NCBI GenBank assembly: GCA_947259315.1
Contig: CAMYLR010000016.1
Location: forward strand, 1-42,053
DNA length: 42,053 bases
Direction: 5' to 3'
Origin: an uncultured Gemmatimonadales bacterium
Lineage (GTDB): Bacteria > Gemmatimonadota > Gemmatimonadetes > JACCXV01 > JAHWKZ01
Of the stretch, positions 7,946-42,053 are shown one piece after another. The notes beneath the pieces are model-generated. The model was not told where the DNA came from and did not search any database. It saw only the letters and a program-made list of their open reading frames with translations. Every line of letters starts with the position of its first letter. Position 1 is the first letter of the stretch. Both the position numbers and the translations under genes were made by a program.

Positions 7946-8029
7946 GCCCGTTGTTCTGCCGATCTGGCAGATGTATCCTCTCCGCCGCGGCGCTCGGCGC
8001 TGCCATCCTGAACCCCGGAGACGCTGTAC

Positions 8030-10908: not shown

Positions 10909-10923
10909 CGGCTCAAGATACCG

Positions 10924-14241: not shown

Positions 14242-14252
14242 CCAGTGAACGA

Positions 14253-16034: not shown

Positions 16035-16060
16035 CACGACATCCTGCATTGTGGGGAGTT

Positions 16061-16792: not shown

Positions 16793-16798
16793 CGTCCC

Positions 16799-17119: not shown

Positions 17120-17124
17120 CCACG

Positions 17125-22964: not shown

Positions 22965-23887
22965 GGCACGTCGAGGTGCTCCAGCAACCGGTCCAGGACG
23001 GAGTCGGGATCGACTTCTTCCGCCTCCGCCTCATAGGTCAGCAGGAGCCGGTGCCGCAAGACATCACGCGCGACGGCCTTTACGTCGTCCGGGACCACGT
23101 AGCCACGACCGTTCAAGAAGGCGCGTGCTTTGGCGGCCTTTGTAAGGAATATCCCGGCTCGGGGCGAGCCACCGAACGCGATCCACGGCTCGAGATCCTC
23201 GAGCCCAAAACGAGTCGGGTGACGGGTCGCCTCGACCAAGTCGAGGATGTAGCTGAGGACCTTGTCATCGACGTATAGGCCGGCGACCACCTCGCGGGCG
23301 TGCAAGATCTGCTGGGGTCCGATCACCGGGCGCACATCGGGTGTTTCGATGGCTGTCATCCGCTCGATGATTTGGCGCTCGTCGTCGCGTTCAGGATATC
23401 CGACTCGAAGCTTGAGCATAAACCGATCGACTTGCGCCTCTGGCAACGGATATGTGCCCTCGTGTTCGATCGGGTTTTGAGTAGCAAGTACCAAAAACGG
23501 GGCCTCGAGATGGTAGGTGGTCTCGCCAAGCGTAACCTGTTTCTCCTGCATCGCCTCGAGCAACGCTGACTGCACCTTCGCCGGTGCGCGGTTGATCTCG
23601 TCCGCTAGCAGAAGGTTGGTGAATACTGGTCCACGGTGGACATCGAACTCGCCACGTTGGGGGTGATAGATCGTCGTGCCGACCAGATCGGCTGGTAGCA
23701 GATCGGGCGTGAACTGGATGCGTTGAAAATCACAATCGACGGCACCGGCCAACGATCGGACAGCGAGTGTCTTGGCTAGGCCCGGAACTCCCTCGAGCAG
23801 TACGTGACCATCGGCCAGCAAACCGATCAACAGTCCGTCCAGCAATGCGCGCTGCCCTACGACGACCCGCGCGATCTCCTCCAACAA
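22961..23887 (-). CDS. MoxR-family AAA+ ATPase
   Basis: 308 residues. AAA+ chaperone-like ATPase presumed to act on VWA proteins encoded downstream. Walker A GVPGLAKT at 33-40, Walker B LLLADEINRAP, sensor 1 in LVLATQNPIEHEGTYPLPEA and the MoxR phrase QVDRFMLKL are all present. The first usable start is TTG at 23887; in frame upstream there is a stop at about 23930 and no ATG or GTG. The protein therefore begins close to the conserved IARVVVGQ, slightly shorter than most MoxR proteins. It opens the 13-gene minus-strand run. About 100 bases separate it from the end of comEC. Confidence 0.92.
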   Translation of the reverse strand: MLEEIARVVVGQRALLDGLLIGLLADGHVLLEGVPGLAKTLAVRSLAGAVDCDFQRIQFTPDLLPADLVGTTIYHPQRGEFDVHRGPVFTNLLLADEINRAPAKVQSALLEAMQEKQVTLGETTYHLEAPFLVLATQNPIEHEGTYPLPEAQVDRFMLKLRVGYPERDDERQIIERMTAIETPDVRPVIGPQQILHAREVVAGLYVDDKVLSYILDLVEATRHPTRFGLEDLEPWIAFGGSPRAGIFLTKAAKARAFLNGRGYVVPDDVKAVARDVLRHRLLLTYEAEAEEVDPDSVLDRLLEHLDVP

Positions 23888-23984
23888 GGTTGAAGCGAAC
23901 GCATTCTCGCGAGCGATCCATGCGTCCTCTCAATACCGGTGCAGCCGCGTCAAAGTTCCGGCGCCGCGGCGTATCCTGCCGAGG

Positions 23985-26324
23985 TCAACGAAGATAGAGA
24001 GTCGCCGATTCCACACGCCACCCACCCGAAACACACCGCGCGGTGACCGTCCCCAGTCGATCCGTACGATAGACGTCGACATCGGCTCGATCGAGGCGCT
24101 CTAAGACCTCAACGTGTGGATGCCCGTGGCGGTTGAGTGCGCTCACCGAGACGACCGCGGCGATTGGTTTCACACGAGCGAGCCAACCCGTCGTGGTCGA
24201 GTGCCGGCTGCCATGGTGGCCAACGTGGAGCAGACCCGCCCGCAACGAGTCACCGAGGGTCGTCGCCAGCGCCGCCTCGGCTCGCGCGCCGATGTCCCCG
24301 GTCAGGAGGACGCGACATCCAGCGTAACTCATCAAGAGAACAATCGATGCGTCGTTGGCACTCGTCGCCGACCCAAACCGATCGCTCGGGACCCAGTCAT
24401 TCTGGGGATGAAGGACATCTACTTTGACCGCTCCTTGCTGCAAGTGATCAGGGGCTCTGAGTTGGACCGCCGTAGTTGCGGGGTGACTCCCGACCGTAGC
24501 CAGCAACCGTATGTAGGCCGGGTTGTCGCCGAGGGCTGCGGCGCTCCCCCACCGATCGACTCGCACTCCGTCGATAACAGTCGCCGCGCCACCCACGTGG
24601 TCGAGATCTGGGTGCGTCGAAATCAGCCATCGCAGGCGGTCGATCCCCTGGGCTCGGAGGTATGGCAATACGACGCTCCGCCCCGCATCGCCGCTCGGGT
24701 ACGCGGGCCCAGCGTCTACCAGCCACGTCGCTCCGTCTGGAAAGCGAATCACGATCGCGTCACCCTGCCCGACGTTGAGCCAGGTCACTTCCAGACCCTC
24801 GATTGGCTGTCGATGACCGCCCAGAGATAGCGCCACGATCACGGCTCCCACACCCCACCCGGCAAGCGGCTGATCTCGCAGAAGCAGCACAGCCGCAACG
24901 ATCAACCCGGCAAGCAGGACGATGGGCCAGGTCCCGGGGCCCGGCACCCACACCGAGAAAAGCGACGCCACACCAACTATCGTGACCTCCAACAGCGCAA
25001 GCGCCAGCGATGCCGTGGTGGCGAGCGGGCCGGCCACCTGTCCCAAACCCAACGCGTCGGCGATCAGCGCGAGCCAAGCGAGCGGCAGCCCGACCGCTGC
25101 GAGCGGGACCGCCACCGGATTCACGAGGAACCCAGCCGGCGCCACCCAGCCGAACGCGCTCGCTTGAACCGGCAGCGTACCCAAGCTCGCGGCGCCGGTC
25201 GCCACGACCGAGGTGACGATTCCGCGCTGAACCGTAGCCAACGCACCGCGAGTACGCCGGGTTCGGAGAGCGCGCCCAGCCCCCATACCCCAAATCAGTA
25301 AACCAGCCACGGCGCTGAACGAGAGCGCGAAACCGAGATCGAACAGATCCAGCGGGCGCCACGCGAGCATCGCAACTGCAGCCAACCCCCACACTTGCCA
25401 CATCGACACCTTCCGCTCGGCTGCGCGAGCCCACAGAAGCGACGCGGTCATCGTGGCGGCGCGAATCACCGAGGGCCGCCCACCAACCAACATGGCGTAT
25501 CCGACCAAGATCAGCGTGGCTGCGCTCGCACGGCGACCCGGGCCCCACCCTATGAGACCGAGGCCAAATGCCAACAGCCAGGCCAGAAAACCGACGTGCA
25601 GCCCCGAGACCGCCAGTAGGTGCAAAGCGCCAGACGCCGCAAACCCATCGACGAGCGCGGGTGGCAGATCCGTACGATCGCCGAGCAACAATGCGGTCAC
25701 TAGAGGCGCCAATCGGGCGCCAAAACGGGCGACGATGCGCTCGCGAAGGTGCCGCTCGCTGGTCGCCAAGAGCGGTACCCGGTCGGACGATCGTTCGATC
25801 AGCTCGAACTCGGTCAAGGTCGCGCGGCGGCGTTGACGGGCTAGACCTGGGGGTGGGTAGCCGCCGCGCCGATTGACGCGCAACGGTTCGGCTCGCAGCT
25901 GACCGATGATGCTCCACTGCTCACCAACTCTGGGCGCAAGTTCGCCGGTCCACCACCAACGGAGACCGGCGCCCCGGCACGGCCGCATGCTGCAGCTAAG
26001 CACGTCGCCCCGCACGTGCCATCTTTGATCGCCACCCGGCAATACCGACGTCAATCTCACGATCGCCGTGACTTGAGCCTCTCGACCGTCAGCCGCCATC
26101 TCAGCCCACGCTGCGGTGTCTACGCGAGCACGATCGGTAACGATCACCAGTCGAACACCGATAGCGACCGCGATGATCACCCAAACGGCGACCTGTGACC
26201 CGACCCGACGGTTCGCCCCGACCCGACGTACGGCTACCACCGCCAAGATGATCAGGGTTGCTGCCCCGACAAGCGCGTGCACGTACGCGGTCCCGAGTCC
26301 CGCCAACCCTAGGGCCACCGCCAC
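23985..26324 (-). CDS. comEC: ComEC/Rec2 DNA uptake channel protein
   Basis: 779 residues, full length. It transports single-stranded DNA across the inner membrane in natural transformation. Domains in order are N-terminal helices and an OB-like DUF4131 domain (about 70-170) and the Competence domain with many helices (LLLGDRTDLPPALVDGFAAS, then GALHLLAVSGLHVGF). A metallo-beta-lactamase domain ends the protein (WLNVGQGDAIVI, STHPDLDHVGG, VLLTGDIG, HVGHHGSRHS). Metal-binding residues of the MBL domain look intact. The first start is GTG at 26324. The 230 bases upstream show no other gene. No other competence gene is in the window. Confidence 0.94.
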   Translation of the reverse strand: MAVALGLAGLGTAYVHALVGAATLIILAVVAVRRVGANRRVGSQVAVWVIIAVAIGVRLVIVTDRARVDTAAWAEMAADGREAQVTAIVRLTSVLPGGDQRWHVRGDVLSCSMRPCRGAGLRWWWTGELAPRVGEQWSIIGQLRAEPLRVNRRGGYPPPGLARQRRRATLTEFELIERSSDRVPLLATSERHLRERIVARFGARLAPLVTALLLGDRTDLPPALVDGFAASGALHLLAVSGLHVGFLAWLLAFGLGLIGWGPGRRASAATLILVGYAMLVGGRPSVIRAATMTASLLWARAAERKVSMWQVWGLAAVAMLAWRPLDLFDLGFALSFSAVAGLLIWGMGAGRALRTRRTRGALATVQRGIVTSVVATGAASLGTLPVQASAFGWVAPAGFLVNPVAVPLAAVGLPLAWLALIADALGLGQVAGPLATTASLALALLEVTIVGVASLFSVWVPGPGTWPIVLLAGLIVAAVLLLRDQPLAGWGVGAVIVALSLGGHRQPIEGLEVTWLNVGQGDAIVIRFPDGATWLVDAGPAYPSGDAGRSVVLPYLRAQGIDRLRWLISTHPDLDHVGGAATVIDGVRVDRWGSAAALGDNPAYIRLLATVGSHPATTAVQLRAPDHLQQGAVKVDVLHPQNDWVPSDRFGSATSANDASIVLLMSYAGCRVLLTGDIGARAEAALATTLGDSLRAGLLHVGHHGSRHSTTTGWLARVKPIAAVVSVSALNRHGHPHVEVLERLDRADVDVYRTDRLGTVTARCVSGGWRVESATLYLR

Positions 26325-26557
26325 GAACGCAGCTGGAGCCAGCGCTAAGCGGTCGAGTCTACGCGGCTGCTCGAAGGAGCGATTCTGAGACTTGCCAGTG
26401 ATCGCAGCGGTGGGAAGCGGCGCGGCATCGTCGGCCGACCGTCACAACTCTTGAGGGTCGCCACGATGGTGTGCGTCAAAGATCAGGGCACTGAAGCATC
26501 GCCATGGAGTCAACCCGAGCAACAGCAAGCCGTGGGCCGGGTCGAGTGGTCGCCCTG

Positions 26558-28717
26558 TCAGTCGACGATGGTAAACGTCCGCGACTGGCGCACGGACCGA
26601 TCGCTGGCCTTTCGATCGGTCAGGGTGACATCGAGCGTGTAGCTGCCAGGTGCTAGCTCCTGGGTATCAAACGACAGGTACTCGGCAGCAACGTCACTGG
26701 CCGAGCCTTTGCGTTCGAATGACAGGGTGATCGCCTCGGGCTCCTCGCTCACGCCGACCAATCCCCTTACAGCCTCGAAAAGTCGTCGGACGGCGCCACG
26801 ATCGAGCGCTGTTGAGCGGACCGTATAGTCGACTCGAAACTCCGAGCCCCCCGCATCATCGACGCCCAGATTGTATATCTCGTAGTAGAGAAACAGCGGT
26901 TGACCGCGCAAGAAGGTGCGAGATGGGAGAGGCAGTACGGTGTGACCGTTCCGATCGAATCGCGGGCTATCTCCACCCGTCGTCACCTGTGCCGCCAGCA
27001 CTATATCCGACAACCCAAGCGCTCCATCAACGAAATCCCTCACACCTGACCCTCGGTCGTCGATCTGCAAGGCAAAGTGGTATCTCCCGGGCATCATGCG
27101 GACACGAAAGAAATCCAGGATGAATGACTCGGCCGACCCGGCTGCCGCTGCCGGACGGACGCCAGTCACGTACTCCATCTCTTCAACGCGGCGAGTGATC
27201 TCGCGCCACCCTTCGTCATAGATCGCCAGCCCTTTTCTATATCGAACACCGCCGGAATCCGTCATCGGCGTGGCGAAGTACACGACCAACTCCGTCTCGG
27301 CTCCCGGAAGCGCGAAATTCGCGGGCGCATGATCCACCGGAAGACGAACCGCTGGCTCGAACGCGTACGAATCGGACGAGAGTGCCAGCGCCCGGTCGCG
27401 ATCGATGCGATCGATCACTCTGTCGACGTCCCAGGCTCGCAAGCCGCCGGGAGCGAAATGCGCCCGACCCATCGGCGTGGTTGGCAAATCGCTATAGATG
27501 CAATCGTTCCCCAGGAACTCGGCCCGCTCACCAAAGCTGCGCGGCCGCCGGAAATTCACCGCAAATGACTTCTGTTCACCCGCCTCCGGACGGCGGTAAT
27601 ACCAGAACCCACACTCATCGCGCCCGACACCTCCCTGCGTATCCGGCTTGCCATGACGCAAGTACAGCTCGGCTCGATCGTCCATCGGCCGATCCTGAAA
27701 GCGAATGGCAAGTGTCGGGCGTCCAAACCCGGTCGCGTTAATCGCCAACAGTTTCTCGAGCCCCCACGCCTTTTTGAGCCGCAGCGAGAAACGGGCGAAG
27801 CGGGCTCGTTCCTGTTGCTCGACCCATCGCTCGTTGACCGGGCTAAACGGCAGCGGATCGCGCTCGTTCCACCAACCGGATAGAACGTCCCGTTTCTGCT
27901 GCAGCGACCACGCGTCCCAATTCGAGCGGTCTCCTTCCGACAGCAGCGGCTCGAGGTCGCGATAGAACGGTTCGATATCCTCGTCTCGACGCGCCTCTGC
28001 CAACCCTCGGCGGTACGCTCGCCAACCGTCCTCGGGGTTTCCGAGCGCCTCAGATATGACACCCTCATAGTATTGAATACGAGATACATACGCCGACGTG
28101 TTCATGTGTCGCCTGAGGCGAGTCACCTCCGCACGAGCAGCCTCATACTCACCGGCTTCGTAAAGCACGTCGATCCGTCGGAGGGCTAGCTCGGGATCGT
28201 ACGATCGAGCCAGATGCTGATCGAAGATCTGAGCCACTACCTGAGAGTCCGTGGGATCCAGATAGAACCGATGCCAGCGTTCGAACGCATCGCGATAGAA
28301 GGGGTCGCGCTTGAAGACCTCCTGAAAAGCCCGTCGAGCGCGGTTCTCAGCGTCCATACCATCGATCTGGATGTTCAGATCCGCGAGGTCATACCAGGCA
28401 TCGATCGGATCAGGGTCGGCGGCCAGTGACCGCTCGAGCGCTCGGCGTGCATCGAACCGTCGATTGTCGAGCGCCAGGTACGAGCGCGCCAGGGCCCGAT
28501 AGCCAGAAGCCTGTGGGTACCCCTCCTTCAAGGCTTGCTCAAACACCCCGGAGGCCTTCCACGCATCGCCGGCGGCCAGTAGTCGCTCAGCCTTCGCGAA
28601 CGTCAGTTCACCGGCTGTCTCTTGAATGATGCTGGCGTGGGCGGTCGGTGCAAACGAAATCAGCGCCCAGAAGATCAAGCTCGTGCCAGGGATTTGTGGC
28701 TGGACCGATCCGATCAA
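26558..28717 (-). CDS. Secreted TPR protein with GWxTD-type domain (copy 2)
   Basis: 719 residues. TTG at 28717 overlaps the upstream paralogue's stop as TTGA. It has a signal peptide ([17 protein letters not shown]) and TPR-like helices to about residue 260 ([33 protein letters not shown]). A GWxTD-type region follows ([42 protein letters not shown]). The C-terminal beta-rich domains end RTFTIVD. GWxTD proteins are widespread in Acidobacteria and Gemmatimonadota and have no established function. The literal GWxTD motif is not present; assignment rests on the ERDP..P.NE and Y..HGKPD blocks. It is clearly paralogous to the next gene. Confidence 0.75.
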
Positions 28718-30924
28718 TCGACGATCGAGAATGCCGCGGTGCGTTCAGTGATCCGATCGAAGAATGCGTGATCGGTGATCACAACCTCGAGCGTGTACGT
28801 GCCCGCCGGTAAGGCGGCGGCGTCAAACGAAAGATGCTCCGGCCAAGCGCGCCCTCCGAAATGTGGACCGCGGCGCTCGAAAGAAAACGTGATCGCTTCC
28901 GGTTCTTCGCGCACCCCAACCAATCCCCGCAGGCTCCCAAAAAACCGCTCGAGCGCGTTGCGGTCCAACTTATCGGCACGAATCGTATAGTCGACGCGAA
29001 ACTCGACCTCGCGGTCGTCGTTGGCCTGCAGGTTGTACACCTCGAAGTACAGATAGAGCGGTTGCTCGCGAAGGAATCGGTGCGATGGCAAGGGAACGAT
29101 CATGCGTCCGTAACGCTGGAACCGGGCTACACCCCCACCCTCGACGATCTCGGCAGACAGCAGGAGGTCCGAGATATCGAGCCCCGTCGGCGAGAAGTGT
29201 CGAACCCGAACGGTGCCCTTCTTGACCCCCACGGCATCGCCCTGGAGGTCGTCGACTTGCAGTGCATAATGGTATGTCCCCGGGCTCATACGGACGCGAA
29301 ACAGATCGACCAGGTACCACTCGCCAAGTTTCTCCTCGTTCTCTATGGCGCGTGTGACGACGGCTCGCATGTCCTCAGACTGGCGAGTGATCTCGCGCCA
29401 ATCCGCGTCATAGAGAACCAATCCCTTTCGGTATCGGGAGCGATTGCCTCGCACTTCGATCTCTGGCACCGGCACCGCGAAATAGAAAACGACATCGGTG
29501 TCGGTACGGAAGTACGAAAAATTGGCGGGCGTCAAATCGACCGGCATCCTGTGCTCGATTCGATGATCGTACGTATCGATCGCCAGGCCAACATTCATGT
29601 CACGGAGCGCGTGTTCTTGCGCCCGCGCCAGATCGTTACCGGTTAACCCTCCAGCCGCGAAGTACTCCAGCGCGAGCGGGGTCGATGGAATTGTGGTGAA
29701 GTTGCAGTCATTACCAAAGAAGATGCCCCGCGCCCCGACCATCAAGTCGTCGCCGTCAGAGAAGTTGACGCCCATCTCTCCATTCGGGAGGCCTTCTCGG
29801 TCGTAGAACCAGAAGCCGCACTCGTCGCGACCCACGCCAGCAGTTTCATCGGGCTCCCCGTGCCGCAGAAAGAACGCCCCGCGATCGTCGAGAGCGCGAC
29901 CGTCCAAGCGGATCGCGACCGCTGGCATTCCGCTGTCACGCCCACCGAGCTCGACGAGCTTTTCCTTGCTGATCGGCTTCTTCCACTGATACGATTCGCG
30001 AGCCACCCGGATTCGCTGCTGCTGCTCGACCCATCGCTCGTTGAGATCGCTGAACGGGAGTGGATCACGCGCGTTCCAGAACCCCTCGACGAACGCTCGG
30101 CGCCGTTCCAAGGGCCAACCCGGCCATGCCATCCGCTCGCGATCCGAGAGTAGGGGTTGAATGTCTCGAAAGTACGGCTCGAGGTCGTCCTCGGTCACTC
30201 CGAACGCAAGACCGTTGAAGTAGTAGCCAGCTCCTTGCTCCAATTCACCGAGCGCCGCCAATACGACCCCGGACAGATGTGATAACCGGGCCAGATAACG
30301 CTCCTGGCGGACGCGCCGACGAAACTCTTCGATCGCCTCCCAGGCGGTCTTGTACTCGCCGGCGTCGGTCAGGACGTCGATTCGCCTGAGCGCCAAATCG
30401 GGGTCGAAATCGCTCTTCAGATGGTTCTCGAAGATCTTTGCCACCTCACGCGAATCCCCCGGATCGAGGTACATCCGCCCCCATCGCTCGTACCCATCGC
30501 GATAGTACGGATCCAACCGGAAAACCTCTTGTAACGCCTTGCGCGCACGGGGGTCGGAGTCACCGCCCTCCAGACGCAGGTTCACGTCGGCTAGCCGGTA
30601 CCATGTTTCGATGTCATCGGGTTCCGCTCTTAGCGACCGCTCGAGCGCTTCGCGAGCAAAAAACAGACGATTGTCGAGCGCTAGATAGGCATCAGCGACA
30701 GCTCGGTAACCCGGTCCGGCGGGGTAACCCTCGCGCACCGCACGCTCGAAGTACTCGCGCGCGTCCCATGCGTCACCGGATGCCATCGCCGCTTCGCCCG
30801 CCGAGAAGCTCGTCTCACCGTGACTTTGGGCCTGTCCTTTGGCCACACAGAACAGGGCCAGGACCGAAGCGATCACTGCGATCGAGAAAGGGCTCGTGCC
30901 CAGCGGACGAACTGACGATACCAT
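28714..30924 (-). CDS. Secreted TPR protein with GWxTD-type domain (copy 1)
   Basis: 736 residues. The signal peptide is [20 protein letters not shown], ending [11 protein letters not shown]-like helices run to about residue 260, then [30 protein letters not shown] and [11 protein letters not shown]. The beta-rich C-terminal part includes [38 protein letters not shown] and [17 protein letters not shown], and ends AAFSIVD. It aligns along its whole length with its downstream neighbour (same blocks, same Cys pair around ECGFW and GNDC), so this is a tandem duplication followed by divergence. The ATG follows a short AT-rich leader. Predicted exported; partner and function unknown. Confidence 0.77.
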
Positions 30925-30934
30925 CCCTATAAAC

Positions 30935-30964
30935 TATAAATGCTTCACCGGCTCAGCCGTTCAA
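30935..30964 (-). promoter_or_regulatory. Possible promoter of the GWxTD gene pair
   Basis: On the minus strand, TTGAAC (30959-30964) and TTTATA (30935-30940) are 18 bases apart. TATAGT three bases further on is an alternative -10. It overlaps the end of the lapA-like gene and would give a very short leader before the ATG at 30924. The AT-rich stretch stands out in this GC-rich DNA, but the match is moderate. Confidence 0.35.
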
Positions 30965-31233
30965 TCACCGCCTCGCTCGCGCTCGAGCTGGCGAACCCGT
31001 CTGGCCAACCGCGCGTTCTCCGCCCTGGCCGCAAGGTCACCCGGAAGACCGAGCAAGAACATCGCCAGAAGGCCCAAGCCGATCCCCGCGTAAACGGCCA
31101 CGACCGCATCGACCTTCCAGCGCCATAGTCCGAAGGTAAACGCGATCGGCTGACCGCGATTATAGAGGGCGAACAGAAACAACACTGTCAACACCACCAG
31201 CGCGAGCCCCAGCGCAGCTCGCGGTCGCGTCAT
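30961..31233 (-). CDS. LapA-domain (DUF1049) small membrane protein
   Basis: 90 residues from ATG at 31233 (MTRPRAALGLALVVLTVLFL), which lies just after the miaB stop. The longer frame would overlap miaB. Two hydrophobic helices (residues 6-24 and about 41-62) are separated by a short loop NRGQPIAFTFGLWRWKVDA. A coiled-coil-like charged tail (AENARLARRVRQLERERG) follows. This is the layout of LapA/YciS proteins, which in enterobacteria help LPS assembly with LapB. No lapB is nearby, so the role here is only suggested. Confidence 0.75.
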   Translation of the reverse strand: MTRPRAALGLALVVLTVLFLFALYNRGQPIAFTFGLWRWKVDAVVAVYAGIGLGLLAMFLLGLPGDLAARAENARLARRVRQLERERGGD

Positions 31234-31249
31234 TGGCCGTTCACCGCTT

Positions 31250-32608
31250 TCAACCGGCGATGATGTTGAGCTCGCCCCGATATCGGCCAACCGGACATGG
31301 CTCTCCTACTGGTTCCGCGTGCAGCGTGAATCCTGAGAAACCACCAATCGCAACTAAGACGATCTCTCCGATCATCTCCTCACTGCCCGGGAAGACAACC
31401 GTCTCGCGGTGTTCTGTCCAGCCCGAAAGCAAGCCTCGCCCACGCCGAGCCGCACGTTGCACGAGCACCGGCTGGGTCGTGCCCACTTTTTCCAGGAGGT
31501 ACGCCGCTCCGATCGAGCGCTGCAACTCGTTCAGACACTCGAGTCGCTCCTGTGCCACCGCCCTCGGAACGACCTCATCGGTCAGGTCGATCGCGGGCGT
31601 GTGCGGCCGGGGTGAGTACATGAAGATGTACGCGGAGTTGTACCGTGTGTGCGTCATCAAGTCGAGAGTGGCCTCGAAGTCAGCTTCTGTCTCTCCCGGG
31701 AACCCAACGATGATATCGGTCGACAGGGCGCAGTGTGGGATTCGGTCGCGCAGCATGTCGATCTGACGACTGTAGGACTCGCGAGTGTACTCCCGCTTCA
31801 TCGCCTTCAACACTCGATTAGAGCCCGATTGAACCGGTAGGTGAACGTGATTCATGATGTTGTCGTGCCCAGCGATCGTGTCGACCAGCTTCTCGGTAAA
31901 ATCCCAAGGATGGCTGGTCGTGAAGCGCACCCGAGCGAGGCTGGGTACCGCGGCCACTGCCGTCAGCAAATCGGGAAAATCAGCCCCTCCATCGTGGTAC
32001 GAATTGACGTTCTGACCGAGCAAGGTTACTTCCTGGGCGCCATCCGCTACCGATGTCTCGACCTCCTCAACGACGCTCTCAAGGGTACGACACTTCTCGC
32101 GACCGCGAGTGAACGGCACGATGCAGTATGAGCAAAACTTGTCACAGCCACGCATGATGGTGATCCAGGCCGCGAACTTCTCCAACCGATAGGGTTTGAG
32201 ATTCTCGTAATGCTCGCTCCGGTTAAAACGGTCGTAGACAACCCGCTCGCCGCCTTCAACACGTGCCAGGATCTCGGGCAGCTGTCTGTACGAGTCGGGG
32301 CCAACAACGAAGTCGACATATGTGGCCCTGTCGAGCAACTCGCGACCTAGCTCTTTAGCCACGCAGCCAGCGACGCCGAGTCGCACTTCAGGCCGGCTCT
32401 GTTTGTAACGATTGAGCTGACCGATACGCCCTATAACGCGTTGCTCAGCATGTTCCCGGATGGCACACGTGTTGACGATCAGTACGTCGGCTTGGTCGGG
32501 TTCGGGCACGCGACGGTGACCGTCGTGCTTGAGAACACCGCCCATGAGCTCGGTGTCAGCGACGTTCATCTGACACCCGTACGTTTCGATGTAGTAGTTG
32601 AGCTGCAT
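31250..32608 (-). CDS. miaB: tRNA-2-methylthio-N6-dimethylallyladenosine synthase
   Basis: 452 residues from ATG at 32608 (MQLNYYIETYGCQMNVADTE). The upstream open frame has no family similarity. It is a radical-SAM enzyme that methylthiolates i6A37 made by MiaA. The N-terminal cluster cysteines sit in YGCQMN, NTCAIRE and AGCVA. The radical SAM motif RGCDKFCSYCIVPFTRGRE supplies CxxxCxxC, and a TRAM domain (GRGLLSGWTEHRETVVFPG) ends the protein. It is 10 bases after the rhodanese gene and 16 before the lapA-like start. Confidence 0.95.
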   Translation of the reverse strand: MQLNYYIETYGCQMNVADTELMGGVLKHDGHRRVPEPDQADVLIVNTCAIREHAEQRVIGRIGQLNRYKQSRPEVRLGVAGCVAKELGRELLDRATYVDFVVGPDSYRQLPEILARVEGGERVVYDRFNRSEHYENLKPYRLEKFAAWITIMRGCDKFCSYCIVPFTRGREKCRTLESVVEEVETSVADGAQEVTLLGQNVNSYHDGGADFPDLLTAVAAVPSLARVRFTTSHPWDFTEKLVDTIAGHDNIMNHVHLPVQSGSNRVLKAMKREYTRESYSRQIDMLRDRIPHCALSTDIIVGFPGETEADFEATLDLMTHTRYNSAYIFMYSPRPHTPAIDLTDEVVPRAVAQERLECLNELQRSIGAAYLLEKVGTTQPVLVQRAARRGRGLLSGWTEHRETVVFPGSEEMIGEIVLVAIGGFSGFTLHAEPVGEPCPVGRYRGELNIIAG

Positions 32609-32618
32609 TCTCGGCCAG

Positions 32619-33089
32619 CTAGTTATCGTCGGGGGTACCGATCTCGGTCGGATAACCGGCCGCCTTCCACCCCTGGAGACCGGCCCGCATGTCATAAACC
32701 TCTGAATAACCCAGGCTCTCCAGCGATTGGTATGCGTACTGGGAGATTGGGCAGTCGTGGTCGGAGCAGTACACGACGATCCGAGCGCTCCGCTGTGGTA
32801 ACCTAGCACCGGGGCGGATATCAACGTACGGGATGTTGACCGCGCCCGGAAGATGCTCTTGTCCGAATTGCACCGCATCGCGTGCGTCGACGAGGACAAA
32901 CGGCGCGCCCTCCTCTTGCCACCCGCGCACTCGTTCCGGAGTGACGATCAGAATCCCGGCTTCAACCTCGGGCGCAGGGACCGACGCGGGCAATGTCTCG
33001 ACGAGCTCTTCCGCGTTGCGATCCCCCGTTTCTTCGGCACCACACGCGATCGCCAAGAGAAGTACCATGGACACCCCTCGGTGGCTCAC
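32619..33089 (-). CDS. Exported rhodanese-domain protein, probable lipoprotein
   Basis: 156 residues from GTG at 33089, overlapping the metE stop as GTGA; ATG at 33068 is an alternative. The N-terminus MVLLLAIACGAEE looks like a short lipoprotein signal with the cysteine of LAIAC as lipidation site. A rhodanese fold follows (FVLVDARDAVQFGQEHLPGA, then NIPYVDI). The active-site cysteine is in VVYCSDHDC, and a conserved end reads GLQGWKAAGYP. Sulfurtransferase activity in the envelope is plausible. A second Cys four residues after the active one could make a disulfide. Being between metE and miaB hints at sulfur metabolism, but this is inference. Confidence 0.82.
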   Translation of the reverse strand: MSHRGVSMVLLLAIACGAEETGDRNAEELVETLPASVPAPEVEAGILIVTPERVRGWQEEGAPFVLVDARDAVQFGQEHLPGAVNIPYVDIRPGARLPQRSARIVVYCSDHDCPISQYAYQSLESLGYSEVYDMRAGLQGWKAAGYPTEIGTPDDN

Positions 33090-35392
33090 GCCGTTACTCC
33101 CGCCTCGGCTCGGACCACGTGAGCAGCGGCCACCATATTCTCCAGCGCCGGGATGACCTCGTCGTACTTCCGCGTCTTCAATCCACAGTCAGGGTTGACC
33201 CAGAGCCGATCGATCGGTAGGACCCGCATCGACGCCCGAATCATATCCGCCAGCTCGTCAATTGGTGGCACGCGCGGAGAGTGGATGTCGTAGACACCGG
33301 GGCCGATGTCTCGTCCATAGTCGACGTCACGGAAAACCTCGAGGAGCTCTTCATCCGAGCGAGCATTCTCGATTAGCAATACATCCGCGTCCATGCGGGC
33401 GATGTGCTCGATGAAGTCGTTAAACTCGGAGTAGCACATGTGAGTGTGGATCTGGGTTTCAGGCCGCACGCCACCGGTCGTCACGCGGAACGCGGCGACC
33501 GCCCAGCGCAAGTACTCGTTCCAACCATCGCTCCGAAGCGGCAGCCCCTCACGCAATGCGGGCTCATCGACTTGGATCACCCTCGCCCCGGCCGCCTCCA
33601 GATCTTGCACCTCGTCACGAATCGCAAGTGCGAGCTGAAAGCACGTCTCCGAGCGCGGTTGATCATCACGCACAAACGACCACTGGAGCATCGTCACGGG
33701 CCCAGTCAACATCCCCTTGATCGGGCGATCCGTGCACGACTGGGCGAACTCCCACCAGCGAACGGTCATCGGCTCCGGGCGATGGACATCCCCAAACAGA
33801 AGCGGCGGTTTGACATAACGTGAGCCGAATGACTGCACCCATCCAAAGCGAGTAAACGCGTAGCCGTCCATGCGCTCCCCGAAGTACTCGACCATGTCGT
33901 TGCGCTCGAACTCCCCGTGCACGGGCACATCGATGCCCATCTCTTCCTGGAGCTTGATCGCCCGGCGGACCTCGCCCTCAAGAAAGGAGTCGTAATCGGG
34001 CCGCGACACCTCGTCACGCAGGAACTTCCGGCGCTGTACGCGAACTTCTGGGTGCTGCGGGAAGGAACCGATAACTGTGGTCGGCAACGCGGGCAAGCCC
34101 AGCTGCTCGCGCTGCACCCCGCGTCGCTGCTCAAAGCCAACCTCTCGACTGACCGTGTCCACATCCAGCGCGTCCATCCGCTCCCGCACGTGGCGACTTT
34201 GGGTCCGATCAGAGGTGCGGCGCGTCTCGAGCGCCGCCTGGTTCGTGGCCAGAGCGCCGGCGACCGCCTCCCGTCCCTCGTTGACGGCCCGCGTCAGCGT
34301 CGCGATCTCGGCCAGCTTTTCGCTCGCAAATGCCAACCAGCTCTTGAGCTCTGTGTCGAGCCCCGTCTCGCGCCCGGCTTCGATCGGAACGTGCAGCAGC
34401 GAACACGACGCGCCAACCATGAGTTGGTCCGCCGACACCATCGACTGGAGGTCCTCCAGCAACTCGAGGCTCGCTGACAAGTCGTTGATCCAGACGTTCC
34501 GACCATCCACAACCCCAGCTACCAAATGCTTGTCGCTTGGAAACCCGTGCTCGCGCATGAGCGCCAAGTTCTCTGGGCCACGAACAAAGTCGAGCCCGAT
34601 CGCGGCGACTGGCAGCCGAGTGAGCGTCGCATAAGCCTCGCCAACATGATCGAAGTACGTCTGCACTATCAATCGTGTATCACCGGCGACTTCGGCCAAA
34701 CGACGATATGCCCGCTCGAGAGCGGCTATCTCGGCCGCCGAGCGATTCTCCACGAAACACGGTTCATCGAGTTGTACCCACTCCGCACCCATCGCAGCCA
34801 GCCTGCCGATTACCTCGGCATACACCTCGACCAACGAGTCCAAGTGGCTTTCCAGCGGTTCTGCCTCAGTTTCCCGTGGCTTCCCGAGAATCAAATAGCT
34901 GACCGGACCGACCAACACGGGGCGGGTCGTTATCCCCAGCTCGCGGGCCTCAGCGAATTCGTCCAGCGGTTTGGTCGACGCCATCCGGAACTTCTGATCC
35001 GGGACGAACTCGGGGACGATGTAGTGATAGTTGGTGTCAAACCACTTCGTCATCTCCATCGCGTGAACGTCGAGCCCTTCGCGCTGCGCGCCCCGGGCCA
35101 TCGCGAAGTACGTATCGAGATCGACCTGTTCACCGTCCCAGCGGTAGCGCTCTGGCACCGCGCCCACCATCGCCGTCGCGTCCAGGACTTGGTCGTATAG
35201 GGAGAAACTGTTCGAGGGGATCAGCTCTATCCCGGCCTTGCGTTGCTCCTCCCACTGCTCACGGCGCAGTCGGGAACAGACCGCCTGCAGTTCGTCGGCG
35301 CTCACTTTCCCGGCCCAATAGCCTTCAGTCGCCCGCTTGAGCTCGCGATCACGCCCGATGCGAGGGAATCCGAGATTGACAGACAGAGCCAT
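33086..35392 (-). CDS. metE: Cobalamin-independent methionine synthase
   Basis: 768 residues, the usual length. It transfers the methyl group of 5-methyltetrahydrofolate polyglutamate to homocysteine. ATG at 35392 is preceded by AGGTGG at five bases, so I prefer it to GTG at 35401. The N-terminal barrel begins [20 protein letters not shown]. The C-terminal barrel carries the zinc ligands in [10 protein letters not shown] and [11 protein letters not shown], with [12 protein letters not shown] between. Homocysteine-site [12 protein letters not shown] is also present. No cobalamin or SAM riboswitch is apparent in the short upstream gap to the FTR1 gene (about 65 bases). Confidence 0.96.
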
Positions 35393-35457
35393 CAGTACCA
35401 CCTGGATTGAAATGTCAAATGTCCTGTTCGAACCAACCTATGAAGCTATTTGTCAGC

Positions 35458-36273
35458 TTATTTCTGAGCAACGGTGGTCGATGTTCCGACCACCGCCCTG
35501 GCGCGCTTCCAACCCATCAGGATTACGACGCCAGCGACGATCGCCAGTCCCAGCAAGACGAGCTGTGCGACCATCGTCTCGACGGTCGGGTAGATCCCAA
35601 GCGAACCGATCCGCGGGCCATTCAACAAAACGGTCTCGGATATCCAACCGGCTTCCTGCAGCTCATGGACTCCGCGACCGGCGAATACAAACGCCAAGTA
35701 ATAGAGCAACAGGCCGGTCAGCGTGAACAGCGGTCGAATCGGCAACCGGGCCCCGTAGCGAAGGACCGCTGCGCCGATCGCTATCATCACGACCGCGCCG
35801 GCGGCGATACCGCTCCACATCGGGAATCCAGCACCAATACCGGCCAGGGCCCGGTAGAACAGCACCGTCTCCGCGCCCTCCCGGTAGACAGCGAGAAACG
35901 CCACCCCACCCATCGCCCAGCGGCTATCCGCGTTGATCGTACGATCCTGCAAATACCCCATCCATCGTGCTACCTGGAGCTTCGACAACAACCAATATGA
36001 GACATAGAAGAGTACCGCCGAGGCCAGGAGCATCGTCACGCCCTCGATCGCTTCCTGATCGGCTTCGGTGAGATGGAGAACCCGATCGACCGTGATGGCG
36101 GTCGCGATACTCACTACGATCGCCGCCGCGGCGCCCTGCCAAATCGCACGAACGCTGTGATGAGAACCGGCTTTGGCTGCCGCCGCTGCCAAGGCGGTGC
36201 AGATCAACAACGCCTCAAGGCCCTCCCGGACGAGGATGCCGAAAGAGTTCAGGAACACCGACCCAGAGGCCAC
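35458..36273 (-). CDS. FTR1-family iron permease
   Basis: 271 residues from GTG at 36273. Seven or so membrane helices carry two REXXE iron motifs: LVREGLEALLI near the N-terminus and VYREGAETVLF in the middle, as in Ftr1/EfeU high-affinity iron transporters. The frame is open upstream and encodes a signal-like SLTFCLILTGFAEGAQA. The only candidate start giving this peptide is an ATT at 36339 with AGGGAG seven bases before it, so the mature N-terminus may be longer. No oxidase or EfeO/EfeB partner lies nearby. The stop is 65 bases before metE. Substrate Fe is inferred from the family. Confidence 0.9.
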   Translation of the reverse strand: MASGSVFLNSFGILVREGLEALLICTALAAAAAKAGSHHSVRAIWQGAAAAIVVSIATAITVDRVLHLTEADQEAIEGVTMLLASAVLFYVSYWLLSKLQVARWMGYLQDRTINADSRWAMGGVAFLAVYREGAETVLFYRALAGIGAGFPMWSGIAAGAVVMIAIGAAVLRYGARLPIRPLFTLTGLLLYYLAFVFAGRGVHELQEAGWISETVLLNGPRIGSLGIYPTVETMVAQLVLLGLAIVAGVVILMGWKRARAVVGTSTTVAQK

Positions 36274-36328
36274 CGCATCGGCCTGCGCGCCCTCGGCGAA
36301 ACCGGTGAGGATCAGGCAAAACGTCAGG

Positions 36329-36844
36329 CTATTGAGAATCGGTTTCTCCCTGCCCGCTCAACCACTCCTGCACGAGGTCCGTATCCTGGGAACCTTCGGG
36401 GGCGAGCTCGAGGAACCGTGTCCAAGCGGTCCGGGCACGTGCGGTGTCGGCGAGCCCATCGCGGGCCATTACGCCCTCGACGAAATAGAGCTCGGGGCGA
36501 TCGGGGCCTAGCCGCTGAGCCTCGGTCAGCTCGCGATCGGCGTCCTCCCACCGCCCCTGGGCCATGAGCGAAACCGCCAAGTCGCCGCGTGGCCCGGGTG
36601 CCGACGGGGCAAGCGCGACCGCCGACCGGAAGTACCTCTCGGCAGTGGCCGGGTCACCTTGATCGAGCGCCTGAACGCCGAGCTGAATGTACTCCTGGAT
36701 TCCGACAGTGTGTGGCGCGCCGTCCGTCGCCTCCGGTGACGACGGATCCGATCCGCCCCCAACCAAGCTCCCCGCCACGAAGCCCAGCGTCATGGTGACG
36801 AACGAGATCGCCACTACGACTTTGAGATCGACACGCCGGCTCAA
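36329..36844 (-). CDS. Membrane-anchored TPR protein
   Basis: 171 residues from TTG at 36844, which overlaps the mtgA stop as TTGA; GTG at 36862 is possible. One N-terminal helix (KVVVAISFVTMTLGFVAGSL) is followed by a Gly/Ser linker. TPR repeats come next (YIQLGVQALDQGDPATAERY, PRGDLAVSLMAQGRWEDADR, YFVEGVMARDGLADTARARTA). Periplasmic by topology. It lies between mtgA and the FTR1 gene with overlapping ends on both sides. This suggests a coupled unit, but I cannot name its partner. Confidence 0.75.
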   Translation of the reverse strand: MSRRVDLKVVVAISFVTMTLGFVAGSLVGGGSDPSSPEATDGAPHTVGIQEYIQLGVQALDQGDPATAERYFRSAVALAPSAPGPRGDLAVSLMAQGRWEDADRELTEAQRLGPDRPELYFVEGVMARDGLADTARARTAWTRFLELAPEGSQDTDLVQEWLSGQGETDSQ

Positions 36845-37683
36845 GGGCGCTCGGATGGCCACTCGATCGACTCGGCCGGACGTCGAATCGGTGCTCGCGA
36901 TGGCTCCGTGATCGGTTGTTCCGGTGAACGGTCCCACCGTTCCATCCGATCGAGGATGCGCTCCTGTCGACGGCGAAGACCCCGCGTCTCGCGAGCGGGG
37001 TTGGCCGTGCGTGGGGCTGGCAGTGTGGCCGCCAACAGGGCTGCCTGTTGTTGCGTCACCTGCGACACAGGTCGACCAAAGTAGGTTTGTGATGCCGCTT
37101 CCACACCAAAGATCCCCGGCCCCCATTCGGCCACGTTGAGGTACAACTCGAGAATACGGTCTTTCGAGAGTATAGCCTCCATTCCAACCGTAATCACGGC
37201 CTCACGCAGCTTTCGAATCGCATTCCGGGATGGAGACAGGTACAGACTCCGAGCAGCTTGTTGAGTGATCGTCGATGCGCCGCGCAACTGTCCGCCACGT
37301 CTCCACCTGTCCCAGGCCGACCGGATCTCCTCGTAATCGAACCCAGAGTGATCATAGAATCGGCTGTCTTCTCCGATCAGGACAGCGCGCGCGAGGTGCG
37401 GTGGCACTGTTTCGAGCGGCGCCCATTCGTAGCGTGGATCCCACACACGACCCTCGTCCGCAGCTTCACGCGCACGATGGATCATAATAGAGGTGCGCTC
37501 GGGCGTGCGGTACCGATGCCATGCTATCGCGGGCAAGTGAACCACAGCCGAAGCGACGATCCAAAACGGTACTGCGACAGCGACGAACGCGATCCACAAG
37601 ACCCGTCTGAAGAGACGCGAGAAACCACTCGCTCCGGAGCTCGACACCCCAACACAATGGGATCTCACGGCCGCGCGCGCCAC
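36841..37683 (-). CDS. mtgA: Monofunctional biosynthetic peptidoglycan transglycosylase (GT51)
   Basis: 280 residues. It polymerises lipid II glycan strands without a transpeptidase domain. An N-terminal helix (WIAFVAVAVPFWIVASAVV) precedes the GT51 domain. Its motifs are intact: EDSRFYDHSGFDYEEI (catalytic Glu), GASTITQQAARSLYLS, KLREAVITVGMEAILSKDRI, LELYLNVAEWGPGIFGVEAA and AALLAATLPAP. The tail after about residue 235 is Arg/Pro-rich and probably disordered. The start at 37683 (GTG) could be a few codons later. It is divergent from the LVIVD protein gene. Confidence 0.9.
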   Translation of the reverse strand: MARAAVRSHCVGVSSSGASGFSRLFRRVLWIAFVAVAVPFWIVASAVVHLPAIAWHRYRTPERTSIMIHRAREAADEGRVWDPRYEWAPLETVPPHLARAVLIGEDSRFYDHSGFDYEEIRSAWDRWRRGGQLRGASTITQQAARSLYLSPSRNAIRKLREAVITVGMEAILSKDRILELYLNVAEWGPGIFGVEAASQTYFGRPVSQVTQQQAALLAATLPAPRTANPARETRGLRRRQERILDRMERWDRSPEQPITEPSRAPIRRPAESIEWPSERP

Positions 37684-37773
37684 ATCTCGACGTCCCCTCG
37701 GTTACCGGATAGCTTATCGACCGCCGCTTTCCTCACATCAACTGCTGCAATTGTAATCTCGAGGTGAAAACAG

Positions 37774-39937
37774 ATGCTACGCCATTCGCTCATCGTCCTC
37801 ATCGCGATGGCTGCCGGGTTGACTCTTACGAGTCACGCCAGCGCCCAAGACGCGCCGACGGTCCCCGCCGGCTTCACCCCCTATCAGCTGATCGGTGAGG
37901 GGATAAACGCGCCGCCAATGCCGTTCAAGATCGAGGGCGACAAGATCACCACGCCTGAAGGCCCGGGAACATTCGTGCGTGTGACCGACAGCCAGGTGAC
38001 CGATGATCGGGCGCGGATGGAGTTCGACACGCCGTTTGGTCCTGGCCGTTTCATCGGTACGCGCGACGGAGACACGCTGGCCGGGCTCTGGTTCAGCCTC
38101 GGCGAGGAGGCTCGATTCGTACTGCCGGTGGCACTCGTGCCGGTCGGTCAGCAACCCCGGGTCAAGCCGAGCTTCGAGATGTTCCGCTCTGCACCCGGCA
38201 TCTCGAGAGTCGAGGTCGTACCAAATAACATCACCCTCGACTCGGAACAATCTCAGCGCTTCGTCGCCCGCGCCTACGACGAAGCCGGTAGCGAGATCGC
38301 CGATAGCGACGTCGAATGGTTCTCGTTGGGTGGGACGATCAACGAGGCCGGCGACTTCGTAGGCATGAACGCCGGTGAGAGAGTCGTCGTTGCGGTCGTG
38401 AGCAACGCCATCGGTACGGCTGCGGTCACGATATCCAGCCCAAGGATCGAGTCGATCAGCGTCTACACCGATGTGCCGTCACGACTCGCGGTTGGCAGCC
38501 GGGTGCCGCTCGAGATCGATGCCCTCAATTCGATTCATCGCTGGGTCTTGGATCCCGCTGTCCAAGTCGTCTCAAGCGCACCGGACGTGATCATGGTTGA
38601 TGCTCACACGCTGGTCGCGCAATCACCGGGTCGGGCAACTGTCACCGTCAGCGCCGACGACGCGGCGACGGAGTACAACATCTCTGTCGTAGCCGGGCCT
38701 GGGGGTCCGTTGTCGATCGGTGGCGTGCCCAGCGGAGTCATCCGCACTGGAGATGTGGTCAAGCTCACGTTGACCGAGGATCATGCGCATCCGGTCTGGT
38801 CGGTAGCTCAGGCCGGCGCCGAGGCATACTCCGACGGCTCGTTCGTGGCTGAGCGGCCGGGTCGTTATACGGTTGTCGCGGTGTTGGGCGACCGCGTCGC
38901 AACGGCGTCGATCGAAGCGGTCGAGCGTGGAGTGTCGGGCCGGATCCACATAAACGGCCACGGACCCGGCCAACCCGGTGCTGACAGACGAGCAGGAGTT
39001 CGACGCCCGCGTCGTAAACGACGTCAAGGTGTCGGAGGATGGCCGGTGGTTGGTCGCGACGCGCGAGGGGGCAACTAACAGGCGCAACGGGATTCTGGTG
39101 TTCTCGCTCCAGGATCCGGCTCGGCCTGAGTTGGTGAGCGAATACACCGAGACCTTGACCGCCGGCGTCCACAACGTCTTCTGGGTCGGAGATCTCGTCT
39201 ATGCGGTCAATGATGGCACCAACGATCTGCACATCATCGATCTCTCCGATCCTGCCCGTCCGCGCGAGGTCGGCCGCTGGGGTCTCCCCGTCGTCGGTCG
39301 CTCGTTGCACGATGTTTGGGTGCAGGATGGCATGGCTTACGTCTCGTACATGAACGACGGACTCGTCATTCTCGATGTTGGCGGTGGGGATCAGGGTGGG
39401 ACCCCCGAGGCGCCAGTGCAGGTGAGCCGGATCTTCTATCCGGGCGGACCGACGCACTCGGCGATCCGCCATCGGAACTACGTCTTCGTGGGCGACGAAG
39501 ACTTCAGCCTTCAAGGCACTACCCCCGGCGTTCCGGGGTTGGACAACGACCCCCGCGGTCCAGTGCACGTCGTCGACGTGACTGATCCAGCCAACCCGAG
39601 GTACGTGGCCAAGTATGAGGTGCCCGAGGCGGGAGCGCATAACTTCTGGGTCGATGATGACGTGTTGTACATCGGCTATTACCAGGGTGGTATCCGCGTC
39701 GTGGATGTGAGTGGCGAGTTGCGAGGTGATCTCTACGCACAGGGCCGCGAGATCACCTACTTCCTGCCGGCGGCCGGACCCGAAGACGCGCGGCTTCCGT
39801 TCGCGCCAAATGTGTGGGGTGTGTTCCCGATGTTCGGTGACGGTTGGTCGCCGGTTGGTGATGTGTTCTACGCGACCGACTACAACTCAGGGCTGTGGAC
39901 GTTCACGGTCGAGCTTCCCGAGAAGCCGATCTCATAA
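37774..39937 (+). pseudogene. Secreted Ig-like/LVIVD-repeat protein gene with an internal deletion and frame change
   Basis: The first frame (37774-39078) has GAGGTG before ATG, then signal peptide MLRHSLIVLIAMAAGLTLTS. A beta domain and bacterial Ig-like domains follow (VVPNNITLDSEQSQRFVARA, GGTINEAGDFVGMNAGERVV), then SGRIHINGHG. From about 38,960 the homologous reading moves one frame over. TDPANPVLTDEQEF, then VVNDVKVSEDGRWLVATREG and LVIVD beta-propeller repeats, run to 39937 (GTHNVFWV-like, VVGRSLHDVWVQDGMAYVS, EVPEAGAHNFWVDDDVLYIG). Such proteins normally have a further propeller blade between the GHG motif and the DPANPV motif. About 40-50 codons therefore seem lost, not in a multiple of three. 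As given, it cannot make a full protein. Confidence 0.75.
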
Positions 39938-39969
39938 CCCAAGGCCCATGACCGACCCGAGGTGACGCT

Positions 39970-39999
39970 CGGCGCTCGACCTCAGAGCGTCGAGCGCCG
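39970..39999 (+). terminator. Hairpin after the LVIVD gene, probable terminator
   Basis: CGGCGCTCGAC, an eight-base loop (CTCAGAGC), then GTCGAGCGCCG: a perfect 11-base stem. It is followed by CCTTTCC, a weak T-tract. It starts 33 bases after the LVIVD stop and just before the methyltransferase ATG. Confidence 0.6.
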
Positions 40000-40011
40000 C
40001 CTTTCCAAAAG

Positions 40012-40689
40012 ATGCCCGACCAAGACAAGGTCTACCAGGACGTTTACCTCAAAGGCCGCGTTGTCCGTCACGGCACGCGGAGCTCCGAAGAGCGCTACCA
40101 GGCGGTCGCCCAAGTCCTTCAGCGCTATCGTCGCCCGTTCACCGTGCTCGATATCGGCGCCAACCAAGGTTACTTCAGCTTTCGCATCGCTCACGAGTTC
40201 GACGCCATCTGCGTAATGATCGAAAAGCAAGCGGCACTGCTCGAAAACTGCAGAAAGAACGAGAGCAACCGAGTGGTTTTGCTCCAACACGCGATAAGCG
40301 CTGGCGAGCTAATGCGCTTGAGTCACACCGAGCATTTCGACGTCGTCCTCGCCCTCAACGTGATCCATCACTTTCGTTTGCGCTGGCGTACGGCTGCGCA
40401 CGCCATCCTCGATTTGGGTGATGCCGCCATCATCGAGAGTCCACCCAACAACGACACCGGGTCGCGCGGGAAATGGATCCGTAGGCCCATCAATCGATTT
40501 CTCGAATCGATGCCGCATAAGGTGATCGCCGAAACCGAACGCCGTAGAGATCGACCGATTATGAGCAAGATGCGGCTGTACGAGCGCGAAGGCATCAGAG
40601 AGAGATCGTCGGTCCCAGTCTCGAGGGCTGCGCACGGTATCAGCCTCGATACCTTTGACCTGCTCGGCGGTGTCTATCCCGAGCGCAAC
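40012..40689 (+). CDS. SAM-dependent methyltransferase, 3' end replaced at a join
   Basis: About 226 residues are methyltransferase-like: the SAM-binding motif VLDIGANQGYFSFRIA near residue 45, an acidic strand end MIEKQAALLENC, then FDVVLALNVIHHF and IIESPPNN. The part ending GISLDTFDLLGGVYP fits the C-terminal region of FkbM-like methyltransferases. The open frame continues to 40851, but from about 40,690 the protein reads as the end of MutT. The natural C-terminus is therefore missing. No good Shine-Dalgarno precedes the ATG. The substrate is unknown; the LVIVD neighbour gives no hint. Confidence 0.7.
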
Positions 40690-40695
40690 GTTTTA
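40665..40695 (+). other. Probable chimeric junction between two genomes
   Basis: To the left, the frame reads methyltransferase (GISLDTFDLLGGVYP). To the right it reads MutT (VLLDTWLVQGFHGE). The YPERN codons in between fit both families, so short shared sequence may have mediated the join. Everything to the right is a gammaproteobacterial-type gene set on strands expected for the mutT/zapD/coaE locus. Confidence 0.75.
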
Positions 40696-40851
40696 CTCGA
40701 TACCTGGCTGGTTCAGGGCTTTCACGGCGAAGTCACCGCCTGTGAGCAGCAGGCGCTGAAATGGATTGCCGTGGATGAAATAGAAAACTACCGGTTTCCG
40801 CCGGCAGACCTGCCAATTCTGGACCTCATAAGACGCAACGCGAGAGCATGA
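40690..40851 (+). CDS. mutT: C-terminal fragment of MutT (8-oxo-dGTP diphosphatase)
   Basis: 53 residues: VLLDTWLVQGFHGE, EQQALKWIAVDEI, YRFPPADLPILDLI. This is the end of the Nudix enzyme MutT, matching the family pattern LLDVW..F.GE...E.Q...W......FP.AN.PI. The Nudix box itself (GX5EX7REUXEEXGU) would lie upstream and is absent, replaced by methyltransferase sequence, so the fragment cannot be catalytic. It converges on zapD and overlaps its 3' end by 26 bases. The E. coli locus has mutT facing yacG-zapD-coaE; yacG is not seen here. Confidence 0.8.
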   Translation, partial: VLLDTWLVQGFHGEVTACEQQALKWIAVDEIENYRFPPADLPILDLIRRNARA

Positions 40852-41599
40852 ACTCGACGTTCTGCTTGACCTGCGAGGGCGGCGCGTCGTTCGACTCCGC
40901 ACGCATGAAACGCACCGAATAGCGATGTTTGCCAGCGCTGATTTCAGGGTATATCTGGCTGCCCGACTCGATACCGATGCGAATCAACTGGGTGGGCTGC
41001 TTGGTGTCCAGCGGTTTTTGATAAAAACCGTTTTCGGCGATAACCGGCTTGCCGACGGCGCTGTCACGAATCGCCTGCAGGATTAACTCGATCACTTCCT
41101 CCAGTTTGCAATAAGGTTTGGCCCACTCCTGCAGATCAGCCACGCGCTGTTCGTGATCACGATTGAGCCAGAAACGCAGCTGCGGTAAATCGAAATCGCA
41201 GGATCCACCCGGAATCGACGTGCGCTGCTTGATCGCGAGTAGAAAATCGTTACGCTTCAGATGTTCGCCGAGTTTACCGTCGAGATGGTGCATGCGATCG
41301 AGCGCGGTCGATTGCCGCGACAATACCAGGTCGAGCTTGGAATGATCGATTTCCTGGTGCTCGGCCAGGGCCTTCAGCGCGCCGATCTGGCGCTCGAGCT
41401 CTTTCATCAACTCCTGTTTCAGATCGCCTCGCTCGAGCAGCGAAGTCAGCTCCAGTATCGTCAACAGCGCGCTGTAAGCGCTCCAGTCGCCTTTCAGGTT
41501 TTCGAAGTAGTGAAACCGCTTCATCAATGTTTCCACGCGCAGACACATGCGAATGCGCTCGTTCAGCGGTTGTTCGAAAGTTTGATACCTGGATGACAT
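40826..41599 (-). CDS. zapD: Cell division protein ZapD (FtsZ-associated)
   Basis: 257 residues, normal length. ZapD cross-links FtsZ filaments at midcell. It begins MSSRYQTFEQPLNERIRMCL, with the N-terminal helical part (RVETLMKRFHYF, WSAYSALLTILELTSLLERG) and typical C-terminal phrases CDFDLPQLRFWLNRD, RDSAVGKPVIAENGFYQKPL and QLIRIGI. It ends in VEFMLSRCVL. The family is essentially restricted to Gammaproteobacteria and some Betaproteobacteria, out of place beside the Gemmatimonadota-like DNA. It lies downstream of coaE with an AT-rich 78-base gap holding a likely promoter. Confidence 0.95.
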   Translation of the reverse strand: MSSRYQTFEQPLNERIRMCLRVETLMKRFHYFENLKGDWSAYSALLTILELTSLLERGDLKQELMKELERQIGALKALAEHQEIDHSKLDLVLSRQSTALDRMHHLDGKLGEHLKRNDFLLAIKQRTSIPGGSCDFDLPQLRFWLNRDHEQRVADLQEWAKPYCKLEEVIELILQAIRDSAVGKPVIAENGFYQKPLDTKQPTQLIRIGIESGSQIYPEISAGKHRYSVRFMRAESNDAPPSQVKQNVEFMLSRCVL

Positions 41600-41625
41600 T
41601 AGATTTATTTCTGCGAAACCCTTAA

Positions 41626-41631
41626 ATTATA
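41626..41631 (-). promoter_or_regulatory. Likely -10 box for zapD
   Basis: A perfect TATAAT on the minus strand lies 27 bases before the zapD ATG, in the AT-rich gap between coaE and zapD. No good -35 match is found at 17 bases. Confidence 0.45.
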
Positions 41632-41677
41632 GCTGAAAAACAATGGCTTATTGTGGCTTCTGCCCCTGCCCGCGGGT

Positions 41678-42053
41678 CTAGCCGGCGGCGGCGCGCTGCA
41701 AGTATAACCGATGCAGGGCGTCAACCTGGGATTCGAGGTCGCTATCGTCTTCGCGATTGTCGATAATATCGTGCGCACGCGCCAGGCGCTCGGCGTTCTG
41801 CATTTGCTGGTCGAGCATTTTTTGCGCCAGCGCGGTATCGATGTTGTCGCGTTTGATCAGGCGCTCGATCTGACGCTCGGCCGGACAATCGACCACCAGG
41901 ATACGATCGACCAGCGACTGAAAGTTGGTTTCGAACAGCAATGGCACCACTACCAGCACGTAGTCGGCCTGACGGCACTTCTGGATGGCTTCGTGGCTGC
42001 GCTGGAATATCAGCGGGTGCAGCATGGTTTCGAGCCAGGTTTTGGCGTCGTGA
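41678..42053 (-). CDS. coaE: Dephospho-CoA kinase, partial (N-terminus off the right edge)
   Basis: About 125 C-terminal residues. The frame is open to the edge: KTWLETMLHPLIFQRSHEAI precedes the core. It phosphorylates dephospho-CoA in the last step of CoA synthesis. Motifs seen are the LETMLHPLI helix, YVLVVVPLLFET (the VPLLFE signature) and DRILVVDCPAERQIERLIKR (lid region). The P-loop would be outside the window. The coaE-zapD order matches the gammaproteobacterial locus. Confidence 0.93.
   Translation of the reverse strand, partial: HDAKTWLETMLHPLIFQRSHEAIQKCRQADYVLVVVPLLFETNFQSLVDRILVVDCPAERQIERLIKRDNIDTALAQKMLDQQMQNAERLARAHDIIDNREDDSDLESQVDALHRLYLQRAAAG

Follow-up and report, generated by a model that had tools for sequence, protein, structure and literature searches.

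The window analysed here, 42,053 nucleotides assigned to an uncultured bacterium of the Gemmatimonadales, comprises bases 1-42053 of a 46,463-base contig (G000:C16), and close to its right-hand end lies an open frame in which a methyltransferase is joined to the tail of a MutT protein, next to a gene for ZapD. The question raised by this locus is whether such a gene is a real fusion, the trace of a transfer between bacteria, or the product of a wrong join between two genomes. The contig is very probably an intra-contig assembly chimera of DNA from two unrelated bacteria.

The frame at 40012-40851 on the forward strand is open for 279 codons. Its residues 1-221 form a class I methyltransferase, recognized by Pfam as Methyltransf_25 at residues 45-129 (31.1 bits, with the cut-off at 27), and are in frame with the last 58 residues of a gammaproteobacterial MutT. 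NCBIfam places a MutT/Nudix C-terminus at residues 215 or 221 to 275 (PRK08999, E=7e-12; MutT, E=3e-7; PRK10546 is also among the matches), and the solved MutT-type structures 2rrk, 3r03 and 1mut match this tail as well. In a profile built from nine gammaproteobacterial MutTs, positions 87-143 of 150 align to residues 222-278 with 81 bits, the match starting exactly at YPERN (residue 222, base 40675). The C-terminal homology is thus present, while the Nudix box, which lies before position 87 of the profile, is missing; Pfam NUDIX was not found in the frame but was found in the MutT of a relative. These searches confirm the preliminary description of the frame as a methyltransferase followed by a MutT C-terminus that lacks the Nudix box, except that the tail, put at about 50 residues, is 58 residues long.

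A genuine fusion protein with a function of its own, as the 279 uninterrupted codons might suggest, is exceedingly improbable. Its MutT part is devoid of the catalytic Nudix box, and the genes downstream are the native neighbours of gammaproteobacterial mutT in their native order. Independent genomes with the same methyltransferase-MutT arrangement, named beforehand as evidence that would speak against a wrong join, were looked for, and none was found in any other genome searched, including 394 genomes of the class and nine gammaproteobacterial genomes. The fusion protein, a methyltransferase core with a MutT remnant lacking the catalytic motif, is most likely made by no cell.

The genes to the right of the frame are gammaproteobacterial. 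The ZapD domain is full-length (PF07072 positions 1-210 of 210, cut-off passed), and the protein is 68-82% identical to those of 16 Gammaproteobacteria that have been seen only in assemblies of metagenomes or symbionts, among them the Olavius algarvensis Gamma 3 endosymbiont, with Methylophaga next at 40-44%. In a maximum-likelihood tree the window ZapD falls inside this group of 17, which has a support of 97/97, its place within the group being unsettled. The gene order to the right of the join is mutT', zapD, coaE, pilD (type IV leader peptidase), pilC and pilB, to around 46,290. The window ends at 42053 because a run of 73 N begins there (42,054-42,126), and this run separates the two halves of coaE, the N-terminal part of which is found beyond the window at G000:C16:42126-42305. 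Since the five relatives compared have 34 bases fewer in the interval that spans the gap, as judged by the alignment ends, the 73 N stand for about 39 real bases, and the run is a scaffold gap of estimated length and not masking. A frameshift is also present near the C-terminus of pilB (G000:C16 around 44,625-44,636, near 44,630; L007 6626-6636) when compared with 91%-identical relatives. Together with the gap in coaE, it suggests that the gammaproteobacterial source was thinly covered.

The same order and orientation, argJ-mutT-zapD-coaE-pilD-pilC-pilB, is found in many uncultured marine Gammaproteobacteria, namely Olavius algarvensis Gamma 3 and its relatives (L011-L026), with 66-82% DNA identity from 40,675 to around 46,290 and only the N gap interrupting the alignment. 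The alignments start at 40674 or 40675 in L011, L014, L015, L018, L020, L021, L022, L024 and L025; at least seven of these loci are independent, and they are collinear with the contig to the end of this range where they are long enough. The foreign segment is therefore collinear with intact loci of a single gammaproteobacterial family over all of the approximately 5.6 kb that can be aligned. In the relatives mutT is complete, with its Nudix box, and argJ lies on its far side, which shows that the window mutT is cut in the middle of the gene. Unlike the relatives' locus, that of the contig lacks the Nudix-bearing N-terminal part of mutT, carries a methyltransferase in the place of argJ, and has its coaE broken by the gap and its pilB frameshifted. 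The arrangement of zapD and coaE on the opposite strand, recognized earlier as that of gammaproteobacterial mutT loci, is borne out by the Pfam scores and by this collinearity. The join had been expected within 40,600-40,750, and both the alignment starts and the protein homology place it inside that range (Table 1). The switch itself, assigned to 40600-42053, is correctly located but not limited to that interval, as the foreign part runs past the window to the end of the contig at 46,463.

Table 1. Features on both sides of the join (positions of the window)
Feature	Position	Strand	Evidence or remark
Host part of the contig, ending with the LVIVD-repeat gene and a terminator-like hairpin	1..40005		Synteny, composition
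LVIVD-repeat gene	38978-39937	+	Last gene of the host part
Residues 1-221 of the chimeric frame: methyltransferase, probably without its native C-terminal end; source genome uncertain	40012..40674	+	Pfam Methyltransf_25
Breakpoint between the two genomes	40668..40675		Starts of DNA alignments and of protein homology
MutT tail of 58 residues, gammaproteobacterial, lacking the Nudix box	40675..40851	+	NCBIfam PRK08999/MutT; profile of nine MutTs
zapD, gammaproteobacterial	40826..41599	-	Pfam ZapD, 238 bits
coaE, C-terminal part, gammaproteobacterial	41678..42052	-	Pfam CoaE, 104 bits

Composition, which the preliminary description proposed to compare across the join, changes there too. The fall in GC is modest, from about 61-63% to 56%. 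For an order-4 Markov log-likelihood ratio, contigs C3 and C11 served to train the host model and seven relatives the gammaproteobacterial one. The ratio is around +0.04 per base on the host side, where each of the 119 test windows of 1-39,900 has a positive value; from 40,501 onward all windows, up to the contig end, have a negative one. Two lineages with distinct relatives and distinct composition thus meet at one point. No long shared k-mer that could explain a false join was found: the rest of the genome gave only chance-level matches of 14-29 bases. When a word shared at the join was used to look for the contig in which the host sequence really continues, nothing above chance level emerged.

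The left-hand part of the contig belongs to the host. The stretch 20,700-36,170 is syntenic with contigs C235, C133 and C99 of a genome of the same genus (G001) at 77-84% DNA identity; more distant members of the family show synteny as well, at lower identity. The possibility that the whole contig is foreign to the bin, for which there was some ground in that the genus mate's best match to the LVIVD-repeat gene is the orthologue of a paralogue on contig C11, is ruled out by this synteny. Contig C99 of the genus mate, where the native neighbour might have been seen, stops short of the join. The host part closes with a terminator-like hairpin read from the sequence at around 39970-40005 (GGCGCTCGAC/GTCGAGCGCC, then TTT).

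The overlapping frames 37774-39078 and 38978-39937 are matched, both in the genus mate (G001:C29) and in the G000:C11 paralogue, by a single long gene that ends in LVIVD repeats. The window copy is short by about 101 bases at 38961-38965, where its frame is broken; the copy may be a pseudogene, or a second misassembly may lie here, 1.7 kb away from the join of the two genomes.

ZapD is foreign to the host lineage, as had been suspected. No match was found in 100 relatives of the host, nor in any of the 394 other genomes of the sample from its phylum, in a search that detected the E. coli protein as a control, and a native ZapD in this lineage is rejected on these grounds. The host also possesses an intact coaE of its own on contig C3.

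The origin of the methyltransferase piece is less clear. When the halves of the frame were searched separately, as had been advised, the MutT tail led to the Gammaproteobacteria, while for the methyltransferase half nothing closely related emerged from 394 genomes of the class, from nine gammaproteobacterial genomes, or from viral contigs, plasmids and phages. Its natural C-terminus, sought in relatives, could not be located for the same reason. The best match is weak, 31.6% identity over 78% to the gp16-type methyltransferase of Omegavirus, a Mycobacterium phage in which this gene adjoins a kinase gene; WbdD is matched with E=0.001. The piece thus shares the core of class I SAM-dependent methyltransferases such as these, but differs from known members in having no close homolog and in probably missing its natural C-terminus.

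The Markov score of 40012-40674 is near zero, lower than in any of the 119 host windows of equal length and higher than in 97% of held-out gammaproteobacterial windows. The piece either came to the host from another organism as an acquired gene or represents a third source. The second option amounts to a variant of the assembly chimera with three sources, namely the host to around 40,005, a third-party methyltransferase at 40,012-40,674, and then the gammaproteobacterium. It is unlikely, although it would account for both the low score and the lack of close relatives among the 394 class and nine gammaproteobacterial genomes, since a gene that the host had picked up from a phage or from some other bacterium would give the same picture, 660 bases are short for a composition test, and inclusion of the intergenic stretch (39938-40674) brings the score into the host range.

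The same foreign-looking composition of the methyltransferase, which could mark a variable region, and the contiguity of sequence across the join might also be taken to indicate a recent horizontal transfer, in which a gammaproteobacterial fragment of at least 5.8 kb integrated into a host methyltransferase gene with a real in-frame junction. This is quite improbable. The fragment shows no return to host sequence before the contig ends and is present in no sampled relative of the host; neither host sequence on both sides nor occurrence among the relatives is thus observed, ZapD being absent from all 394 other genomes of the phylum sample. It carries housekeeping genes, zapD and a coaE already present in the host, its gammaproteobacterial composition is unameliorated, and its genes, none of which is a mobility gene, are all native neighbours at the gammaproteobacterial locus. 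Slightly less probable still is a recent inter-phylum transfer of the mutT'-zapD-coaE-pil fragment into the host chromosome that created an expressed methyltransferase-MutT fusion. Nothing was found that favours a real transfer over misassembly.

The assembly chimera is favoured because the foreign segment starts in the middle of a gene, keeps its native order and composition, duplicates a host gene, and does not give way to host sequence again. In this metagenome-type assembly, the assembler would have joined the end of the host sequence, inside the methyltransferase gene, to a fragment of a co-occurring marine gammaproteobacterium, which begins inside mutT and, as far as the contig end, includes zapD, coaE, pilD, pilC and pilB. 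The reading frames on the two sides would have agreed by chance, so that the open frame survived. Such an agreement has a chance of about one in three beforehand and needs no selection.

An origin of the join during assembly, and not in a living cell, is further favoured by the nature of the contig, a scaffold with an estimated gap, and by the pilB frameshift, which fits a thinly covered source. Several points count against it: the junction lies in contiguous bases and not at a run of N, no long k-mer shared between the two sides was found to account for a false join, and the stated contamination of the bin is low (0.94%, at 95.8% completeness), yet one such fragment would hardly shift that figure. 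The earlier proposal of a chimeric contig with an accidental in-frame join agrees with all of the indirect tests, namely the mid-gene start, the collinearity, the composition, the absence of ZapD from the lineage and the host coaE elsewhere.

Misassembly across genomes, giving rise to chimeric contigs, is a recognised source of error in metagenome-assembled genomes according to the authors of GUNC (PMC8201837). It is relatively rare, rarer than mis-binning (PMC8201837), which also counts against a chimera here. Chimeric contigs of the type described there likewise combine genes from two distant lineages, which meet at a single breakpoint (PMC8201837); in the window, unlike in these, the breakpoint falls within an open frame and creates what looks like a fusion gene.

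Both the apparent methyltransferase-MutT fusion and the ZapD gene seemingly carried by the host are almost certainly artefacts and not biology. The locus provides a clean, mappable example of a misassembly that passes the standard bin checks, although it generates a fusion gene and makes ZapD seem present in a phylum whose sampled genomes lack it. The last 5.8 kb of the contig should be taken out, and claims of ZapD, type IV pilus genes or a methyltransferase-MutT fusion for the host lineage that rest on this segment should be dropped. The fusion is of value as a caution, and otherwise does not represent real biology.
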